Assembly: GCA_902763805.1 (NCBI GenBank)
Contig: CACWTN010000003.1
Span: 62,001 to 126,000 of the forward strand
DNA length: 64,000 nt
Source of the DNA: an uncultured bacterium
GTDB taxonomy: Bacteria > Cyanobacteriota > Vampirovibrionia > Gastranaerophilales > Gastranaerophilaceae
Reading direction: 5' to 3'
Positions 43,065 to 55,874 of the stretch are shown here, in pieces. The notes under the pieces were generated by a model that worked only from the letters and a program-made list of their open reading frames with translations, had not been told where the DNA came from and did no database searches. How positions within the stretch are numbered: the stretch's first letter is position 1; each line of letters begins with the position of its first letter. Position numbers and translations under genes: made by a program.

Positions 43065-44363
43065 ATGGTTTTTAGGGGAACAGTGAAGATATATCCTGTT
43101 TGGGTGTTAATCACTTTATTGGTGTTTATCCAGCCTGCTTATGCATACATTGACCCCGGGACAGGCAGTATGTTGTTTTCGGTGATTTTGTGCTCAGTAA
43201 CCACTGTTTTCTTTTTGTTTAATTCTCTGATTTTAAAAATAAAATGCAAACTTTTTTCTAAAAATACTCTTTCGGAAACAACTCATAAATTTGTTATCTA
43301 TTCGGAAGGAAAGCAATATTATTGTGTTTTTAAACCCATAGCTGATGAGTTTGAAGCAAGACAAATTCCAGTTGTTTTGTATACTTCATCTCAGGATGAC
43401 CCATTTTTTAAAGAAAATTACAAATATGTAAAAGTTGAATTTATCGGAAAAGGTAATACGGCATATTTTAAACTTGCATTCCTGAGGGCGGATGTATGTT
43501 TACTGACTACTCCGCAGTTAGATGTTTTACAGCTTAAACGCTCAAGAAATGTTAAACACTATAGTCATATACTTCACTCAATTGGGTTTTCAATGGATTA
43601 TAAACTCTTTGCGTTGGATTATTATGATTCTGTTTTATGTGATGCGGAATTTCAGATTCCGCTAATCAGAGAGATTGAGCAAAAACGCAGTCTGCCTGCA
43701 AAAGAACTGGAGGTTGTAGGCAGTACATATATGGATTATTATGCAAAAAAACTACCCGAACTTAAGATTCAGCCTTCGGAATATACGGTTCTGGTTGCAC
43801 CGTCCTGGGGTCCGTTCAGTTTGTTAAACAGGTACGGACGGGAAATCCTGGATAAATTATCTGCGACTGATTATAATGTTATCGTCCGTCCGCATCCTCA
43901 ATCGCTTATTGTTGATAAAGAGCTTGTTGACAACCTGATGAACAAGTATAGGGATTGTAAAAATATCAGCTGGGATTTTTCATCCGAAAATATAAAGACA
44001 TTAGCTAAGGCAGATGTTATGGTGAGTGATTTTTCATGTGTCATGCTGGATTATGCTTTCTTGTTTAACAGACCTTTCGTATACGTTGATACGGATATAA
44101 ATTTAGAGGCTTTAGACAGCGTTGATTTAGATAAACAACCTCCGTGGCGGTATGGAATTATGGAGCAGCTTGGCAGAAAATTTGTTCCGGACAGGGATAA
44201 AATGGAAAATATTACGGAATTTATCAATGAAGTTATTCGTGATGAAAACTTAAAGCAAAAGATAAAACTTGCCGGCGATTATGCCTGGGAAAAACGTGAT
44301 TTTGCCGCAAAAAATGCAGTTGATTTTTTGGTTAAAATCCAGCAGGAGGTTAGTGAAAAATGA
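43065..44363 (+). CDS. CDP-glycerol glycerophosphotransferase-like protein
   Basis: The 432-residue protein has an N-terminal hydrophobic region (about 8-60, two segments) and a GT-B-type catalytic part resembling TagB/TagF (Glyphos_transf). Signs are VVGSTYMDYYAKKL, VLVAPSWGPFSL, VIVRPHPQS and the later VMVSDFSCVMLDYAFLFNRPFVYVDTD region. Such enzymes add glycerol phosphate from CDP-glycerol to a growing polymer. ATG follows AGAGAGGGATT. Its end overlaps the next gene by 4 bases (ATGA), so the two are coupled. Substrate is inferred from the TagD-like gene at the end of the operon. Confidence 0.78.
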   Translation: MVFRGTVKIYPVWVLITLLVFIQPAYAYIDPGTGSMLFSVILCSVTTVFFLFNSLILKIKCKLFSKNTLSETTHKFVIYSEGKQYYCVFKPIADEFEARQIPVVLYTSSQDDPFFKENYKYVKVEFIGKGNTAYFKLAFLRADVCLLTTPQLDVLQLKRSRNVKHYSHILHSIGFSMDYKLFALDYYDSVLCDAEFQIPLIREIEQKRSLPAKELEVVGSTYMDYYAKKLPELKIQPSEYTVLVAPSWGPFSLLNRYGREILDKLSATDYNVIVRPHPQSLIVDKELVDNLMNKYRDCKNISWDFSSENIKTLAKADVMVSDFSCVMLDYAFLFNRPFVYVDTDINLEALDSVDLDKQPPWRYGIMEQLGRKFVPDRDKMENITEFINEVIRDENLKQKIKLAGDYAWEKRDFAAKNAVDFLVKIQQEVSEK

Positions 44364-47092
44364 TGCATTTCTTGTATTGCCTAATAATTCAGCCTTTATA
44401 TATGCTGTTTGAATTTTTGTTCGAAAATATCATAGTACAGACAAATAACAATATATGCCTGACAATACTATTAATGAGTTTTATTGTTTCATTACTGTGT
44501 CTTCCTTTGTATTTGCGTGCAGATGCTCTTCAGCAGGAAGAAACGGATATACAGAAAAAATTATCTAAAAAAACAAAAATTATTAAGGATAATTATAAAG
44601 GCGATGAAAGAATATTTCTGCTCCAGACATTGTACCGACAGAACAACTATCATCCGATTATGGGATTGCGTTTGTCACTGAGCCTTTTGCTTCAAATCCC
44701 GATATTTATAGCTGCGTATACATTCTTTTGTCATTTGAACATGCTTCACGGTATGGATTTTGGTTTGGTAGAAAATTTGTCTAAACCTGACGGTATTTTG
44801 CGATTTCATAATCTGAGCATTAATGTTCTGCCTATTTTAATGACTGTTGTTAATATTCAGGCAGGGTATATTTATGCAGACAGCAAGAGTTTTAAAGATA
44901 ATAAAGTTTTGATAATTATAAGTCTGGTATTTCTTGTACTGTTGTACAACTCTCCGGCTGCGCTTGTTTTATATTGGTTATTTAACAATGTATTTTCTTT
45001 GTTTAAGAATATACTGCTCAGGGTTTGTACGCATGAAAATCTTATAAAGTATGTTTTTTCATTTGCACTGGTTACATATTATATTTATGAAAAAATATTT
45101 ATTCAGAAATATGATGTAATATGTCTTATTTTTGTTTTAGCCGTACTTGCATTTATGTATTTAAAACCCAAAAAGCTCAACTCATATAATTTTGATTTTG
45201 GTTATAAAAAAATATTTATACTCAGTATGTTGTCATTTTTGGTGTTTGTCGGCGTCCTCGTTCCTTCAAACGTTGTTTCTACATCTCCGGTTGAATTTAT
45301 TTTTGATGACAGCAGTCCCCTCAGAATTTTGCTTTATGCGGCAACGGTTATGACGGGATTTTCTTTTTGGGGGTTTTGTATTTACTATTTTTCAAGCACA
45401 AATTTAAGAAAATTGCTCTCTGTTCTGCTTTATTTTGTGTTGTTGTGTTCTATTGCAAATATTTATATTCTGAAATTGCCGGTTATGATTTTGACATCAG
45501 AGCTTACTTTTGAAGCTGCTATGGTTAAATTTAATATGTATACCGTACCTCAGTATTTATTATTTGCACTTCTTGTCGGAGCAGGAGTTTTGGTATTTAT
45601 ATATTCTGTTCTGAAAAAACGAGAGAATATTATCAGCAATGTATTATCAATATTTATTGTAACCTGTTTATCTATATCACTTTATAATTATTTTAATGTT
45701 TATCAAAAAAATGCTTTGTTTCTGAAAAACAATCCAAAAGTAAAGTTTAATTATGAACCGTATGTTAATCTGAGTAAAACGAATAAAAATGTATTTGTAA
45801 TATTTGTTGACAGGGCAATCGGTTCATACTTACCGATAATCTTTAAAGAACATCCACAACTGAATGAACAATTCCGCGGGTTTACGTACTATCCGAATAC
45901 ACTTTCATATGCAGGGTATACAATGGTCGGATATTTGCCGATATTGGGCGGATATGAATATGTTCCGTTTAATTTTGATTCAAGAGAAGGTGGTTTTAAC
46001 CAGAAACTTGATGAAGCAATAACAGTGCTTCCTGCAATATTCAGCACCCATAATTATAAAACACGTATTATTAATCCTATGGAAAACAGCTGGGGCAGTT
46101 CGGCTTTTGGTGCATTATCATTTAAACAAATCAAGAAGTTCACGCATAACAATATGTATGAACAATATAATATTGAACATTTAACTACACCAGAGTCTAT
46201 TATTGAGGGTTTAAAGGGTGACGTTGTAGTTGTTGACAGTTCATTAACCAAGAGAAATTTAATTTATTTCAGCTTTTTCTCCGTTGCACCGCCATTTGCC
46301 AGAGCGTATATATATAACAACGGAAAGTATCACAGTACTTCTGATAATGTGGAAATTAAATATAAACCGGATTTTCTGCAGAGTTATGCGGAACTGTTAT
46401 ATTTGCCAAAAATTACGGAGTTAAATGCAAAAACGAATACGTTTACCGTATTTAATAATTCTTTGCCGCATGCACCATGTTTGTTAAAATATCCGAATTA
46501 TGATTTATCGGAAAATAATTTGGATACGTACATTCCACCAATATTAATAAATGATGATAACTGGTCATTGAAACATTATCATGTGAATGTTGCTGCGCTG
46601 AAGCTTTTGGGCGATTATTTTGACTATTTAAGAAAAAATAACGTATACGATAATACAAGAATTATAATTGTTGCTGACCATGGGTACGGGTACAATTTGC
46701 AAAATCCGTATATGGGGCAATTTGAAGCCGATAATTATTTACCGTATAATCCGCTTTTAATGGTAAAAGATTTTAACAGTAACGGCAGATGGAAAACGAA
46801 TAAAGAGTTTATGACGAATGCTGATGTTCCGCTTATAGCAACAAAAGGCATTATAAAAAATCCGATAAACCCGTTTACTAAAAATGGTTTAGCGCCTGAT
46901 AAAGAACGAGGTGTTATAATAAAACACGACGTTGACTGGCAGCCGAATAATTATTTGGGAAAAGCAAAAATGTTAAAGAAAACGGATGTATTTAATTATG
47001 TAAAAGGTGATCCTTTGAATCATGATAACTGGAAGGTAAAATTATCTTATCAGGAAGCCTGGGATCTGTACAGACAAAGCGGAGGCAAATAG
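44360..47092 (+). CDS. Fusion of YidC/Oxa1-like domain to LTA-synthase/sulfatase-like domain
   Basis: The 910-residue membrane protein has two parts. Residues about 1-225 follow the YidC/Oxa1 plan: IIQPLYMLFEFLF, LLCLPLYLR, LYRQNNYHPIMGLRLSL, LLLQIPIFIAAY and SPAALVLYWLFNNVFSLF. The Arg that normally lies in the hydrophilic groove before LPL is Ser44. About 230-450 hold further helices. Residues about 478-800 form an alkaline-phosphatase-type hydrolase or transferase: VFVIFVDRAIGSYLP (Asp484), a probable nucleophile Thr521 in YAGYTMVGYLP followed by LGGYEYVPF, and VADHGYGYN (Asp773, His774). This fits a phosphoglycerol or phosphoethanolamine transferase. The gene is coupled to its neighbours on both sides. 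Confidence 0.75.
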   Translation: MMHFLYCLIIQPLYMLFEFLFENIIVQTNNNICLTILLMSFIVSLLCLPLYLRADALQQEETDIQKKLSKKTKIIKDNYKGDERIFLLQTLYRQNNYHPIMGLRLSLSLLLQIPIFIAAYTFFCHLNMLHGMDFGLVENLSKPDGILRFHNLSINVLPILMTVVNIQAGYIYADSKSFKDNKVLIIISLVFLVLLYNSPAALVLYWLFNNVFSLFKNILLRVCTHENLIKYVFSFALVTYYIYEKIFIQKYDVICLIFVLAVLAFMYLKPKKLNSYNFDFGYKKIFILSMLSFLVFVGVLVPSNVVSTSPVEFIFDDSSPLRILLYAATVMTGFSFWGFCIYYFSSTNLRKLLSVLLYFVLLCSIANIYILKLPVMILTSELTFEAAMVKFNMYTVPQYLLFALLVGAGVLVFIYSVLKKRENIISNVLSIFIVTCLSISLYNYFNVYQKNALFLKNNPKVKFNYEPYVNLSKTNKNVFVIFVDRAIGSYLPIIFKEHPQLNEQFRGFTYYPNTLSYAGYTMVGYLPILGGYEYVPFNFDSREGGFNQKLDEAITVLPAIFSTHNYKTRIINPMENSWGSSAFGALSFKQIKKFTHNNMYEQYNIEHLTTPESIIEGLKGDVVVVDSSLTKRNLIYFSFFSVAPPFARAYIYNNGKYHSTSDNVEIKYKPDFLQSYAELLYLPKITELNAKTNTFTVFNNSLPHAPCLLKYPNYDLSENNLDTYIPPILINDDNWSLKHYHVNVAALKLLGDYFDYLRKNNVYDNTRIIIVADHGYGYNLQNPYMGQFEADNYLPYNPLLMVKDFNSNGRWKTNKEFMTNADVPLIATKGIIKNPINPFTKNGLAPDKERGVIIKHDVDWQPNNYLGKAKMLKKTDVFNYVKGDPLNHDNWKVKLSYQEAWDLYRQSGGK

Positions 47093-47096
47093 AAAT

Positions 47097-48185
47097 ATGA
47101 CATTATTCACTTGCGGACCTGTTCAGATGTACAAAAGTACAATGAATGTCAGAAATAATGGGTACATTCATTTCAGAACGGACGAATACGGCGATATTGT
47201 AAAAACTACATTGGCAAGATTATCTGAATTAATAGGCAACCATAGGAAATTTGGAACAATATATCTGGCTTCATCCGGTACTGCTGTTATGGAAGCAACA
47301 ATAGAAAATTGTATATCTGATTTGGATAAATGTCTGGTTATAAACGGCGGCGGCTTTGGCAGAAGATTTTGTGAACTTTTAAAATATCATCAGAAAAATT
47401 ACACTTCAGTTGATATAAAATGGAATGAAAAACTGACGGAGGAGCATCTTAAACCGTATGAGGATAAAGGGTATACAGCATTATTCGTGAATATTCACGA
47501 AACAACTTCCGGGCAGTTGTATGATAAAAAAATGTTAAGTGATTTCTGCAAAAGAAACGGTATGTATTTTATTGTAGATGCAATGAGTTCTTTTATGGCA
47601 GATGAATATGATATGGACAAATATGGCATAGATGTTACGCTGATAACCTCTCAGAAGGGTTTGTGCTGCTCCCCCGGAATGGCGGTTGTATCTTTAAGCG
47701 AAAGAATGATAGAAAAAATTTATTCAGAGAAAAACAGAGTAACTTCAAAGTATTTTGATTATAAAGATTATCTGGACAATATTGACAGGGGGCAAACTCC
47801 ATACACTCCGCCGGTGTTCATGATTTATGAAGTCAGAGATGTGCTTAATCTTATTGAAGAAAAAGGCGGTTTAGACGCATGGCTCAACGATATAAAACAT
47901 AAAGGCGAGTTTTTCAGAAAAAGGGCTGAGGCAATTGATTTAAAACTTCCTGACTATCCTGTTTCGAATATGTTGACACCCGTAATATTTGATGATATAA
48001 GTGCTTATGACGTAATACAGGTCTTAAAAAACGAGTATTCAATATATGTAAATCCGTGCGGCGGTGAACTTGCTTCAAAGCTTGTGAGAATTTCGCATAT
48101 CGGAGATACAACGACCACTGATATAGAAGATTTAATGGAAAAATTAGTGTTATCAATTAATCAGGTAAGAAAGCAGATAAGATAA
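47097..48185 (+). CDS. Class V aminotransferase (2-aminoethylphosphonate transaminase-like)
   Basis: A 362-residue PLP enzyme of the AGAT/2-AEP:pyruvate transaminase clan. It has the GP-type start (TCGPVQMYKST), LASSGTAVMEATIENC, VDAMSSFMADEYDMD (PLP ring Asp), and the PLP Lys in ITSQKGLCCSPG. The usual chemistry is transfer between a small amine or amino acid and a 2-oxo acid, or the phosphonate analogue. Position in a CDP-glycerol-type operon (5 bases after the fusion gene) suggests it makes an amino substituent for the polymer or a phosphonate head group. The substrate is unknown. Confidence 0.75.
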   Translation: MTLFTCGPVQMYKSTMNVRNNGYIHFRTDEYGDIVKTTLARLSELIGNHRKFGTIYLASSGTAVMEATIENCISDLDKCLVINGGGFGRRFCELLKYHQKNYTSVDIKWNEKLTEEHLKPYEDKGYTALFVNIHETTSGQLYDKKMLSDFCKRNGMYFIVDAMSSFMADEYDMDKYGIDVTLITSQKGLCCSPGMAVVSLSERMIEKIYSEKNRVTSKYFDYKDYLDNIDRGQTPYTPPVFMIYEVRDVLNLIEEKGGLDAWLNDIKHKGEFFRKRAEAIDLKLPDYPVSNMLTPVIFDDISAYDVIQVLKNEYSIYVNPCGGELASKLVRISHIGDTTTTDIEDLMEKLVLSINQVRKQIR

Positions 48186-48223
48186 ACGGCATTATAAATA
48201 ACAGAAATGCGCAGGGGTGAAAA

Positions 48224-48685
48224 ATGATAGGAAATAAAACAGTTGTATATACATCGGGAACTTTTGATATGCTTCATATCAACCATTTAAAAATGATTGA
48301 GTATGCAAGAGCATTGGGTGATATTTTAATTGTAGGTGTGAATACGGATGAGCTTGTCGCAACGTATAAATCAATTCCGATTATTCCTTTTGAGGAGAGA
48401 ATAGCATTAATGAAAGCTATAAAGGGTCCGGATATTGTTATTCCCCAACATTCACTTGATCACAAGGATAAGGTGGAAAAACTGCATTTTGATATATTTG
48501 TTGTTGGTGATGACTGGGTTGGAAAGTATGATTATCTTAAAGGCATGGGGGTAGATGTCGTGTATTTTCCGTACGGTAAAGGTATAAGCTCCTCCAGCCT
48601 TAAAAAGAAAATTTATAATAATTATAAGAAACTTCAGGATAAAGCTAACAGCCATTTGCCAATAGAAGCTTTGACTGAAAATTAA
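48224..48685 (+). CDS. TagD-like nucleotidyltransferase (glycerol-3-phosphate cytidylyltransferase family)
   Basis: The 153-residue protein has the nucleotidyltransferase fold: GTFDMLHINH in place of the usual GTFDxxHxGH, and the ISSSSLKKKI element (family ISTTxI/L). TagD makes CDP-glycerol from CTP and glycerol-3-phosphate; relatives act on phosphoethanolamine or aminoethylphosphonate. The Asn instead of Gly in the HxGH motif could change activity or substrate. ATG follows AGGGGTGAAAA, a variant of the window's recurrent motif, 38 bases after the aminotransferase gene. Last gene of the operon. Confidence 0.78.
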   Translation: MIGNKTVVYTSGTFDMLHINHLKMIEYARALGDILIVGVNTDELVATYKSIPIIPFEERIALMKAIKGPDIVIPQHSLDHKDKVEKLHFDIFVVGDDWVGKYDYLKGMGVDVVYFPYGKGISSSSLKKKIYNNYKKLQDKANSHLPIEALTEN

Positions 48686-51044: not shown

Positions 51045-53669
51045 ATGAAAAAGTTTAAAATTTCGATTATAATTCTTTCAACGTTAATTGTACTGTATTT
51101 AGGGTTTATTTTTGCAGTTTCTTTGTTCTTAAATTCCGACAATTTTATTAAAATATCAAATAGCTTTTTTAAAACCAAATATAATATGAATTCTGATATA
51201 AGCGGTTTGAAAGTAGAATTATCCCCGTTATTATCCGTTAAAATAACGGCTAAAGACATTGTTATCAAAGATAATGATAAAGTCGGATTAAATATAAAAA
51301 ATTTAAATACATCTGTTGACAGATTAAAATTAAAAAATATAGATGCAGATTTAGTCTATGCAGATCTTGATATCTTAAAAAAACTAAAAAGTGAAAAGAA
51401 AAAAGATACAAAAAAGAAAAAATCTTTTGATATAAATAAAATACCTTATGCAAACATAAAAAAAATAGAAATTGTTCGAAACGAAGGCGAAAAATTATCA
51501 ATATCATCAAATCAGTTTGTAATTAAAGAAAGTAACGGAATAAAAAACCTTGATATTATTCTGAATATAACGCTTGACAGAGTTTTACACCCAATATTAA
51601 TAGGCGAGGTTGGAAGTTTATACACAGATAATAAAAAGTTGATGGCAAAAAACTTTCCGATTGCAGTCGGTAAAACGAAAGTTGTTATAGACGGCAGTAT
51701 TCTGAATGACAAAAAATTAGATAATTTTACGATTAAGGGGGATAAAGTTCCTGTAAATGAAACTCTTGGAACTGTACTATTTCTTCAAAAATATGGCATA
51801 AAAGAAAGAAAATTTATAGAGAATTTTACGGATTTTAAAGGTACTGCGGATATAGATTTGGTTTATAAAGACAATGATTTGTCAGGTGTAGTGACCGCAA
51901 ATGATTTGTTTGCCAAATTCCTTCCTTTTTATGTTCCTGTAACTTGTAAAAAAGCAGAATTTTTTATAAAAAACGGGGAAGTAAAATCTTTTGCCGTCGG
52001 AACATTCGGAACAGAGAAATTGACACATGAGCTGCTTATAAAGGAAATGTATGACAGGCAGAAAAAAGAAGTTTTCGGAAAAGTTAATTCAAAAATAACA
52101 ACGGCTTTGGCTAAAAAATACCTGCCTTCCAATATAAAGGTTAAAAATTATCTTGATATGGAAGTTGATTATTATATAAAGCAAAAGAAACCTAATGCCA
52201 AATATTTTATAAATATACCGGCTGATTCAGGTATAATGTTTAATGATTACTATGCAGGAATTCGAAACAAAAATAAAAAAATATTTGCGGAAACACAAAA
52301 AATAGATAATGAATTTTTCTTAAAAGATTACAGATTCTCTGTCCAGGAAAATAATGAGTTTAAAGACATATTGTCTGGGCACGGATATTTTAAAATCATA
52401 GACGGCAAAATGACTCCGCAATACATAACATTAAATACAAACGGCTATGTTCCAAACTCTTTTGTCGGCTCTTTTAAGCAATATGTTTTGGGCGGTAAAT
52501 TTAACGGTGCTTTAAAATATAATTTTGTTACAGAGCAAATTACGGGTAATTTTGAGGTTATTGATACTATCTTTAATCATTTCCATGTAAAATCCGCAAG
52601 TGTTAATGCAGATGAAAAAAATGCAAAAATTGAAGCAAAAGGAACATATAAAAAAGAAGAATTTAATTGTAAAACAGAGGTTAAAAATGATTTCAAAGAC
52701 AAAATTCATGTAAACTATATGGATTTATTCCTTGATAAATTTATTGTCAAAAAATCTGATAAACCGAATGCTGCAAACAAAAAATTTGATTTTAATTCCC
52801 CGAATAAAGAATTGAGTGCAGGGGTTAGAGATATCAACATGGATATTGATAAATATAATATTGCGGTTAATTCTATCATTGTTAAAGATTATCCTATAAG
52901 CAATATTAAGGTTTTCGGCAGTCTTAAAGATGCAATTTTTAAATATAATACATCTGAAATTGATTTTGCAAACGGCAAACTATCAGCGAGGGGAACTTAT
53001 GATTTTAATATAGATTCTTCAAACATTGATTTTATAGCAAAAAATATAGACTCAAATATTGTTGCGGAAAAAATCTTCAATATTAAAAATCAAATTCAGG
53101 GGAAAGCTAATGCCGAACTTCATTCTAAAACCGGCAAAAATTGGGAAAATTGGGATGCGACGGCAAAATTTGAAATCCAAGACGGAGCTTTGCCGGGACT
53201 TGAAGAACTGGAATTTTCTGTTGATAAAACCTTGAATAAAAAAGTAAAAGTTGCAGATTATGTAAAATTTAATGCAAAGAAAAAAGGAAATATAAGATCT
53301 AATATAAGCGGTTTCTTTAAATGTGATGATGTATTTATTCGTGATATAGATATCCGTATGCAGCACGAATTTACATCAGCATATATTGATGGTTTTTATA
53401 ATTATATAACACAGCAGGGAAATCTTGATATTTGGGGGAAATATGATAATTCAGCTGTAAAACAGATTAGAGTTTTACATATTCCTCTTAATTGGTTAGT
53501 AAATGTACTTGTTCCGTCAGAAAAGAAAAATGCTGAAATGCAAAACAATTTTGATAAGATTCCGTCAATAGGGATTGACAATTCTAAGGCAAAATATTTT
53601 AGAATAAATTTAAAAGCAAATGAAAAAGATCCGGCAAAAACAGATGTAACAACAAAATTAATAAAATAA
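51045..53669 (+). CDS. AsmA-like / DUF3971-type envelope protein
   Basis: The 874-residue protein has one N-terminal transmembrane segment (about 5-28) followed by a long beta-rich periplasmic region. The start (LSTLIVLYLGFIFAVS, FLNSDNFIKISNSFF, KLSPLLSVKITAKDIVIKDN-type layout) resembles AsmA/TamB-like proteins, which form groove-like tubes that carry lipids between membranes. Lys-rich stretches occur at about 115-130. Length is normal for this group. It stands alone after a terminator. An exact family assignment needs a profile search. Confidence 0.7.
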   Translation: MKKFKISIIILSTLIVLYLGFIFAVSLFLNSDNFIKISNSFFKTKYNMNSDISGLKVELSPLLSVKITAKDIVIKDNDKVGLNIKNLNTSVDRLKLKNIDADLVYADLDILKKLKSEKKKDTKKKKSFDINKIPYANIKKIEIVRNEGEKLSISSNQFVIKESNGIKNLDIILNITLDRVLHPILIGEVGSLYTDNKKLMAKNFPIAVGKTKVVIDGSILNDKKLDNFTIKGDKVPVNETLGTVLFLQKYGIKERKFIENFTDFKGTADIDLVYKDNDLSGVVTANDLFAKFLPFYVPVTCKKAEFFIKNGEVKSFAVGTFGTEKLTHELLIKEMYDRQKKEVFGKVNSKITTALAKKYLPSNIKVKNYLDMEVDYYIKQKKPNAKYFINIPADSGIMFNDYYAGIRNKNKKIFAETQKIDNEFFLKDYRFSVQENNEFKDILSGHGYFKIIDGKMTPQYITLNTNGYVPNSFVGSFKQYVLGGKFNGALKYNFVTEQITGNFEVIDTIFNHFHVKSASVNADEKNAKIEAKGTYKKEEFNCKTEVKNDFKDKIHVNYMDLFLDKFIVKKSDKPNAANKKFDFNSPNKELSAGVRDINMDIDKYNIAVNSIIVKDYPISNIKVFGSLKDAIFKYNTSEIDFANGKLSARGTYDFNIDSSNIDFIAKNIDSNIVAEKIFNIKNQIQGKANAELHSKTGKNWENWDATAKFEIQDGALPGLEELEFSVDKTLNKKVKVADYVKFNAKKKGNIRSNISGFFKCDDVFIRDIDIRMQHEFTSAYIDGFYNYITQQGNLDIWGKYDNSAVKQIRVLHIPLNWLVNVLVPSEKKNAEMQNNFDKIPSIGIDNSKAKYFRINLKANEKDPAKTDVTTKLIK

Positions 53670-55200: not shown

Positions 55201-55229
55201 TTGACATGTTGTATGGTATAGCATACAAT
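55201..55229 (+). promoter_or_regulatory. Toxin-antitoxin promoter, probably leaderless
   Basis: A perfect TTGACA (55201-55206), 17 bp, TACAAT (55224-55229). Transcription about 7 bases downstream would begin at or next to the toxin ATG (55236), leaving no ribosome-binding site. Confidence 0.7.
55209..55228. promoter_or_regulatory. Palindromic operator within the toxin-antitoxin promoter
   Basis: TTGTATG-N6-CATACAA, 7-bp perfect arms, spans the spacer and the -10 element. It is placed so that antitoxin binding would block the promoter. Confidence 0.65.
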
Positions 55230-55235
55230 ATAATT

Positions 55236-55547
55236 ATGAAACAAATTGTTTATTATACAACCTTGGACAAGAAATGTCCTTATTTAGATTGGTACAATTC
55301 TCTTGACAAAAGCATCAGAAAGAGAATAGATATGAGAATTGATAAACTAGAAGAAGGGCATTATGGTGATTATAAATGTATATCAAATGATTTGTTTGAA
55401 CTCAGATGTAAATTTGGTTCAGGTTACAGAATCTATTTTACAGAAGAAGAAAATGTAATAGTTCTTATTTTGTGTGCAGGCGATAAATCGACACAAAAGA
55501 AAGATATACAAAAAGCAAAAGAAATAATTAAAGAAATAAAGGAATAA
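55236..55547 (+). CDS. HigB/RelE-superfamily toxin
   Basis: About 103 residues from the ATG at 55236. The pattern TLDKKCPYLDWYNSLDKS, ELRCKFGSGYRIYFTEEENV and LILCAGDKSTQKKDIQKAKE is that of Gp49-like/HigB mRNA interferases (RelE fold). The longer reading from 55206 would begin at the -35 and is rejected. It is followed 3 bases later by an XRE-type antitoxin gene, the toxin-first order of HigBA. Regulated by the palindrome in its promoter. Confidence 0.85.
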   Translation: MKQIVYYTTLDKKCPYLDWYNSLDKSIRKRIDMRIDKLEEGHYGDYKCISNDLFELRCKFGSGYRIYFTEEENVIVLILCAGDKSTQKKDIQKAKEIIKEIKE

Positions 55548-55550
55548 AAT

Positions 55551-55874
55551 ATGAAAATTAAGCAAGAAATATTAAATAGAGGTATTACTCATGAACAACA
55601 TATGCAAGAGGTCCTTAAGGATAATGAGTACCAAAAAGACTACTTGCGATTGAATATTGAAGAATACGCTAAAAATGGTGATTATGCGTTATTTTTCAAA
55701 TCGCTTGAAAGGGTTGTAAAAGTTCGTACAACAATAAGCCAGCTTGCAAAAGATTTGGAAATGAATCGTTCAAATTTGTCTAATATTTTGAAAGGTAAAG
55801 TCCAGCCGAGTTTTGATACAACAATGAAAATTCTGCGAGGCTTGGGTGCTGAAATAGAAGTAAAATTTGCATAG
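55551..55874 (+). CDS. HigA-type XRE-family antitoxin
   Basis: A 107-residue protein with a C-terminal helix-turn-helix (ISQLAKDLEMNRSNLSNILKG) and an N-terminal dimerisation or toxin-binding part. This is the addiction-module antidote form that usually follows a HigB/RelE toxin. ATG follows AAGGAATAAAAT. It most likely neutralises the toxin and represses the shared promoter. Confidence 0.85.
   Translation: MKIKQEILNRGITHEQHMQEVLKDNEYQKDYLRLNIEEYAKNGDYALFFKSLERVVKVRTTISQLAKDLEMNRSNLSNILKGKVQPSFDTTMKILRGLGAEIEVKFA

Follow-up and report, generated by a model that had tools for sequence, protein, structure and literature searches.

A YidC-fold domain fused to an LtaS-like enzyme beside a glycerophosphotransferase-like gene: a possible module for head-group transfer across the membrane

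What could a YidC/Oxa1 domain be doing in the same chain as an extracytoplasmic enzyme, and does the loss of its groove arginine tell us that it inserts no proteins? The question is raised, in a gut bacterium, by an ORF of 910 amino acids (44360–47092, + strand) in the window, i.e. the whole stretch of 64,000 nucleotides that was analysed, which encodes a YidC-fold domain, transmembrane helices and an LtaS-like extracytoplasmic enzyme. The ORF starts with ATG, has no internal stops, and its predicted coordinates proved exact. A chance fusion or a frameshift is ruled out, since more than 100 full-length relatives share the same architecture in several phyla. The fusion was found in Clostridia, Treponema and others, including the named isolates Treponema berlinense, Treponema ruminis, Lachnospiraceae MA2020 and Lachnospiraceae XPB1003; similar fusions in Firmicutes, which the original prediction mentioned, are confirmed.

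Two domains in one chain

The YidC/Oxa1-fold domain (residues 1–222; 44360–45025, + strand) is composed of an EH1-like helix, TM1, the C1 hairpin and TM2–TM5. Pfam 60KD_IMP (PF02096) matches residues 34–220 (1.2e-21, 77.8 bits against a cut-off of 35) and TIGR03592 (yidC_oxa1_cterm) matches the fusion at 1.7e-22. The domain was also folded and searched alone, and its model aligns with the YidC of B. halodurans (3wo7) with Z 17.9 over 209 residues at 3.1 Å; a search with the whole chain gave enzyme-domain matches only among the matches listed. A five-TM core and the C1 hairpin are present in the AF2 models. The YidC/Oxa1 layout originally read from the N-terminal 225 or so residues is therefore confirmed, and neither of the outcomes named beforehand as refuting it, namely no YidC match or no Oxa1 core, occurred.

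Seven transmembrane helices with a positive-inside pattern are predicted for residues 223–465 (45026–45754, + strand), the last five of which may be the counterpart of the 5-TM part in PbgA-type enzymes; the alignment with PbgA (6xlp) covers residues 277–910, with a poor overall rmsd. The remainder, from about residue 469 to 910 (45764–47089, + strand), is a transferase domain of the alkaline-phosphatase/sulfatase fold, and the predicted helices together with the positive-inside counts would place it on the outer side, following several TM helices. The proposed profile check with Pfam Sulfatase gave a match at residues 499–779 that fell just below the cut-off of 25 in a single-protein scan (2.4e-5, 24.2 bits) and above it in a whole-genome search (27.2 bits). 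Foldseek matched the enzyme domain to 2w5r with an E value of 4.2e-7, and Z scores of 19–21 were obtained with many superfamily members. The presumed metal ligand Asp484 (45809–45811), the presumed nucleophile Thr521 (45920–45922), the presumed active-site His704 (46469–46471) and the presumed metal ligands Asp773-His774 (46676–46681), all on the + strand, are each invariant in 104/104 relatives, and include the alkaline-phosphatase-type residues first noticed in this half; they were assigned by motif, with only the D773-H774 stretch profile-aligned to LtaS (4uoo). LtaS-type transferases use a Thr nucleophile, and sulfatases a Cys or Ser that is converted to formylglycine. Taken together, the fusion is confirmed as a YidC-fold domain joined to an LtaS/PbgA/Ept-type extracytoplasmic enzyme with the alkaline-phosphatase fold. 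Its YidC half is the more conserved one, with a mean pairwise identity of 51% against 41% for the enzyme and 22% for the linker helices.

The groove of the YidC domain

Ser44 (codon 44489–44491, + strand) does occupy the position of the YidC groove Arg, as had been claimed. The family profile places it at the groove Arg of E. coli YidC (IIITFIVRGIMYPL over iillSlvvnllvLPL), and so does a phmmer alignment with B. halodurans YidC2. Among 104 relatives this position carries N in 62, S in 30, T in 5, Q in 3 and F in 1, with a gap in 3. Arg or Lys is found in none of the 101 with a residue there, and the groove Arg by which YidC/Oxa1 insertases are recognised is thus missing from all 101 fusion relatives.

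The further step, from Arg loss to a protein unlikely to be a general insertase, could not be kept. The R366N variant of E. coli YidC complements fully when residue 517 is aromatic, and the Arg is not strictly required when that residue is aromatic or polar, yet in S. mutans YidC2 the Arg is essential despite a Trp at the equivalent position (PMC8920935). The fusion has W206 at the position of E. coli YidC 517. Moreover, five standalone YidCs from fusion-bearing Lachnospiraceae-type genomes carry N or Y at the Arg position. Since the Arg is dispensable in some YidCs and lacking in several standalone Lachnospiraceae ones, its absence is weaker evidence than it seemed, and we dropped it as proof against insertase activity.

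The groove itself is polar and uncharged (N/S44, T162, N165, W206, N209, N210), and T162, N165 and N209 are family-specific residues almost never seen in standalone YidCs. The groove-lining TM2 to TM5 segments reach 60–61% mean identity, above the C1 hairpin at 48%, in which E83 and Y92 are nearly invariant; conservation of this hairpin is equally compatible with simple docking. A standalone YidC is kept in 20/21 genomes. The window's own genome has a separate one with the groove Arg present, which rules out the fusion as a replacement of the genome's YidC.

Neighbouring genes and a proposed module

Directly upstream lies a gene for a CDP-glycerol glycerophosphotransferase-like protein of 432 aa, here GPT (43065–44363, + strand), with an N-terminal YIDPGTGS membrane motif and a match above cut-off to Pfam Glyphos_transf (PF04464, 6.8e-8); it is presumed to be a cytoplasmic-face transferase. 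Its stop and the fusion start share 4 bases. When loci with the same fusion and the same neighbours were counted, as originally advised, GPT adjoined the fusion on the same strand in 50/77, with gaps of at most 30 bp in 50/51 and with both gene orders occurring (28 and 23). It lies beside the fusion in 10/10 other family genomes examined and in one more (G070), and was not found in the fetched flank of several fusion loci. A promoter and terminator scan performed no better than on shuffles.

The same parts have also been joined differently. YidC-GPT fusions occur in 4/46 fusion-bearing genomes; in three of these four an LtaS-like gene lies directly upstream, and the fourth encodes all three domains in a single chain, in the order LtaS-YidC-GPT that agrees with the membrane topology. 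In a FastTree tree the YidC of the YidC-GPT fusions clusters with Firmicutes YidCs, apart from the window type, which indicates at least two recruitments of the YidC fold. Some clusters hold up to four fusions, and every paralogue in them has its own YidC copy.

Downstream, a class-V aminotransferase gene (47097–48185, + strand) starts 4 bases past the fusion. It is of PhnW type but of a distinct subfamily, scoring 147.9 bits against the PhnW-AepZ model, below the equivalog cut-off of 360.8, and relatives with 39–42% identity lie near the fusion at loci L032 and L052, in whose genomes PEP mutase was not found. It is followed by a TagD/HldE-type cytidylyltransferase gene (48224–48685, + strand; TIGR01518, TagD, 1.7e-30, with 105.7 bits below the equivalog cut-off of 165.4), which presumably makes a CDP-activated head group; similar genes lie near the fusion at L035, L036, L095, L147, L150 and L151, and nucleotidyltransferases occur in 32 fusion loci. 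In relatives, PEP mutase, phosphonopyruvate decarboxylase and PhnW were identified near fusions by NCBIfam, one locus (G671) having the order fusion, GPT, Fe-ADH, Ppd, CYT-PepM. Genomes with the fusion are enriched in PEP mutase (5/13 vs 17/237, p 0.003; in a second set 6/11 vs 44/371, p 0.001), in tests that ignore shared ancestry. In the window's own genome there was no TIGR02320 (PEP mutase) match and only a weak PF13714 superfamily hit. A phosphonate as this organism's own head group is thus unsupported, and the group should differ from the phosphonate of many relatives.

We propose, with a probability of about one half for the steps as given, that the four genes at 43065–48685 form a trans-envelope module for phospho-head-group transfer. 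The aminotransferase and cytidylyltransferase would make a small CDP-activated amino or alcohol phosphate in the cytoplasm; relatives would instead make CMP-activated phosphonates, their loci holding PEP mutase, decarboxylase, and PhnW or alcohol dehydrogenase. GPT, judging from its family, would transfer the group from the CDP donor to a membrane-bound lipid or glycan acceptor at the inner face. The YidC-fold domain would dock GPT and bring this lipid-linked intermediate, by presenting or scrambling it, to the outer leaflet, where the LtaS-like domain, with its recognisable fold and active site, would attach the group, via a Thr phospho-enzyme, to a glycan or lipid of the cell surface. This reading is based on the GPT pairing, the domain re-fusion, the topology, the conservation of the YidC half and the head-group genes; both the positive-inside pattern and the orientation of YidC are consistent with an enzyme outside and GPT inside. 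The trans-membrane module as such is well supported, and it is the precise role of the YidC domain that we infer. That an Oxa1-like fold was recruited to surface phosphotransfer, as first suggested, gains from the gene pairing and re-fusion; the polymer-building part of that idea stays conjectural, the neighbours suggesting small phospho- or phosphono-head groups.

Perhaps two or more independent recruitments made the Oxa1/YidC fold a dedicated conduit or scramblase, which hands lipid-linked phospho- or phosphono-head groups from a CDP-dependent transferase in the cytoplasm to an LtaS-like one outside the membrane within one machine, although we hold this only tentatively. We know of no natural pathway in which lipid scrambling is the job of an insertase. 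Lipid scrambling in vitro is known for E. coli YidC and for other Oxa1 proteins (PMC10491306), an activity that does not single out the proposed role because it is reported as general to insertases. A docking scaffold, in which the YidC domain holds GPT through the C1 hairpin beside the outside enzyme and moves nothing, would account for the GPT pairing, the domain swapping and the well conserved hairpin; it is a rather doubtful explanation, as a pure dock needs neither the more conserved TM2–TM5 groove nor its family-specific T162, N165 and N209. Still less probable is a decayed YidC serving an LtaS-type enzyme as an extra membrane anchor, for which the lost Arg could be invoked: we consider it scarcely credible, because no part is better conserved than the YidC half and the coupling has arisen at least twice.

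A dedicated insertase acting in cis, which inserts or folds the downstream parts of the fusion or the membrane helix of GPT, is unlikely. Each paralogue in the multi-fusion clusters keeps its own copy, a standalone YidC is retained in nearly all of the 21 genomes, and the enzyme's relatives LtaS, EptA and PbgA have, to our knowledge, no YidC domain. The true YidC fold, the Arg-less standalone YidCs and W206 speak for such an insertase, W206 in view of the E. coli data and with the S. mutans result against it (PMC8920935). The C-terminal domain might also remove groups, acting as a sulfatase or phosphonate monoester hydrolase, as these enzymes tie with the transferases in fold (Z about 20); the Thr nucleophile in 104/104, as in LtaS-type transferases, and a biosynthetic operon context make this very improbable.

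If the conduit reading is true, the Oxa1 fold would act on a lipid-linked head group instead of a protein, and a YidC fold joined to head-group transferases inside and outside the membrane would provide a natural pathway for scrambling. The module would also be a candidate for the missing last steps of phosphonate surface tailoring in rumen and gut bacteria, and the named isolates that carry the fusion make it testable. That relatives occur in several phyla and that the three parts have been re-fused independently both suggest a YidC fold recruited to aid the attachment of small phosphorus-containing groups to cell surfaces.

Comparison with known systems

No published YidC-LTA synthase or YidC-glycerophosphotransferase system was found in the literature searched. 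With the YidC/Oxa1/Alb3 insertases (PF02096) the fusion has in common the five-helix core, the C1 hairpin and a polar groove, but its relatives never have a positive groove residue, T162, N165 and N209 are their own, and the domain is joined to an enzyme and occurs alongside a standalone YidC. The head-group genes beside many fusions are those of Pnt phosphonyl tailoring (PepM, Ppd, PhnW and nucleotidyl activation), whose published neighbourhoods hold LicD-like transferases or glycosyltransferases that serve later steps; here GPT and the YidC-LtaS fusion lie downstream, neither of which appears in the main text of that publication, and the window's own genome differs in having no PepM (PMC6697681). 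GPT shares the family match and a conserved RPHP motif with the TagB/TagF-type CDP-glycerol glycerophosphotransferases (PF04464), yet it has the N-terminal YIDPGTGS membrane segment, is a regular neighbour of the fusion and is itself joined to a different YidC in some genomes. Finally, the fusion resembles the LtaS, EptA/MCR, PbgA/YejM and OpgB-type transferases in its alkaline-phosphatase fold on the outside, its predicted multi-helix membrane part and its likewise invariant Asp/Thr/His/Asp-His set, whereas it differs from them in adding a YidC domain and in being paired with a CDP-alcohol transferase.

The YidC-LtaS fusion protein

The open reading frame at 44360–47092 (+) is real, encoding 910 amino acids with no internal stops, and the YidC/Oxa1 character that the original prediction gave to its N-terminal part was borne out by a Pfam profile search, in which residues 34–220 matched 60KD_IMP (1.2e-21). 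The proposed Sulfatase match was recovered at residues 499–779 (2.4e-5), slightly under the cut-off in a single-protein scan and over it in a whole-genome search, and the catalytic residues proposed for the C-terminal half (D484, T521, D773 and H774), as well as H704, were invariant in 104 full-length relatives. The AlphaFold2 model of the fusion (pLDDT 86, pTM 0.83; 81 sequences in the alignment) runs from a long TM1-C1 helix through CH2, TM2 to TM5 and seven further helices to an alpha/beta domain. Modelled separately (pLDDT 92.7), residues 1–230 adopt the YidC fold, with a Z of 17.9 against B. halodurans YidC (209 residues, 3.1 Å), and the best nine structure matches of this domain were YidC or OXA1L without exception. 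For the C-terminal domain, LtaS was the top Foldseek match (E 4.2e-7), and Z values of about 19–21 were tied among LtaS, PbgA, EptC, phosphonate monoester hydrolases and sulfatases; thus the fold alone does not decide the reaction. Positive residues were dense in predicted inside loops and sparse in most predicted outside loops, the TM6-7 loop being an exception, a charge pattern which argues for a predicted topology with a cytoplasmic C1 hairpin and an extracytoplasmic LtaS-like enzyme.

Distribution and gene neighbourhood

Scanning 84,980 species genomes gave 115 matches; among the best 80 of these we identified 77 fusion loci, whose hosts were nearly all rumen or gut Clostridia, Treponema and a few others. 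The distribution is patchy: the fusion was found in 13 of 250 species of one clostridial family and in 11/382 genomes (8 genera) of the window's own class, and is absent from most genomes in the window's genus. Clusters holding as many as four fusions occur. Mean pairwise identity among 69 relatives less than 70% identical was 51% for the YidC half, 41% for the enzyme and 22% for the linker helices.

In 50 of these 77 loci the fusion is adjoined, on the same strand, by a CDP-glycerol glycerophosphotransferase-like gene (GPT, PF04464), with gaps of at most 30 bp in 50/51 and the gene order occurring both ways; the N-terminus YIDPGTGS was present in 59/65 GPTs. The window GPT gene (43065–44363, +) overlaps the fusion gene by 4 bases. 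A GPT and a divergent fusion are also encoded on a contig labelled uncultured Acinetobacter (RUG672; observation on L094 and L005); their sizes are close to those of their counterparts in G018, which belongs to the window's genus, and their identities to the query are the same as there (32% and 21%), which makes the record's organism name doubtful.

Nucleotidyltransferases of several kinds, some fused to PEP mutase and some to a CobD-like enzyme, were found in 32 fusion loci, beside phosphonopyruvate decarboxylase (Ppd), PhnW and Fe-ADH. In G671, from the window's own family, the unbroken order is fusion, GPT, Fe-ADH, Ppd and cytidylyltransferase-PEP mutase. In two groups, PEP mutase was commoner with the fusion (5/13 vs 17/237 and 6/11 vs 44/371, shared ancestry being ignored). 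No PEP mutase was found in the window genome, and the window aminotransferase (47097–48185) and cytidylyltransferase (48224–48685) score well under the PhnW and TagD cut-offs, respectively. A reasonable guess for the putative head group in this organism is a CDP-linked amino alcohol, e.g. ethanolamine. In locus L139 (G070:C10), the host is not of the clostridial group, yet its PhnW, cytidylyltransferase-PEP mutase and Ppd share 68–77% identity with clostridial proteins, so the phosphonate locus was probably horizontally transferred. In L147, L150 and L151, a SAM-methyltransferase-like gene (about 211 aa, by eye) adjoins the cytidylyltransferase at the module, which suggests a methylated head group.

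Elsewhere in the window, the pair of small genes at 55206–55874 looks, by eye, like a toxin of the RelE/HigB type with a helix-turn-helix antitoxin. The 874-aa product of 51045–53669 has a membrane helix at its N-terminus and matched no Pfam family; from inspection by eye alone it is possibly AsmA-like.

Domain re-fusions and the role of the YidC fold

A module of CDP-donor transferase, YidC fold and LtaS-like transferase is well supported, and its strongest evidence is domain re-fusion, all from beyond the window. In 4/46 fusion-bearing genomes, a YidC domain is joined to GPT instead; in three of them an LtaS-like gene immediately precedes this one, and in the fourth the genome search found LtaS-like, YidC and GPT parts in one chain (L138:1-3060, single open frame, 1200 aa). 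This order is the one that the topology demands: outside, membrane, inside. In a FastTree phylogeny (local support only), the YidC domains of YidC-GPT fusions, which retain a groove Lys, group with standalone Firmicutes YidCs (0.94), and window-type domains form their own clade (1.0). The simplest reading of these separate positions is that the YidC fold was recruited twice.

The alignment confirmed Ser44 at the groove-Arg position of YidC; among the 104 relatives this column holds N, S, T, Q or F, a gap in three, and Arg in none. The original prediction argued from this against a general insertase, an argument which is not decisive: E. coli YidC with R366 removed and Trp at 517 still complements (PMC8920935), although the Arg is essential in S. 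mutans YidC2, whose residue at the equivalent place is Trp. Moreover, Lachnospiraceae-type standalone YidCs (L112, L113, L114, L115 and L120), the sole standalone copies detected in their genomes at E ≤ 1e-25, carry N or Y at the position of this "strictly conserved" Arg. The window-type groove is polar but uncharged, and its T162, N165 and N209 almost never occur in standalone YidCs.

With the CDP-donor transferase inside, the YidC fold in the membrane and the LtaS-like transferase outside, the YidC domain would present or move a lipid-linked intermediate. Lipid scrambling in vitro is reported for E. coli YidC, yeast Oxa1 and Get1 (PMC10491306), so such a role is chemically reasonable; alternatively, the domain may serve docking or self-insertion.

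The YidC-LtaS architecture and its gene module are real and conserved, and apparently undescribed, as our literature search found no published description of either. If the presenting or moving of an intermediate holds, it would be a new use of the Oxa1 fold.
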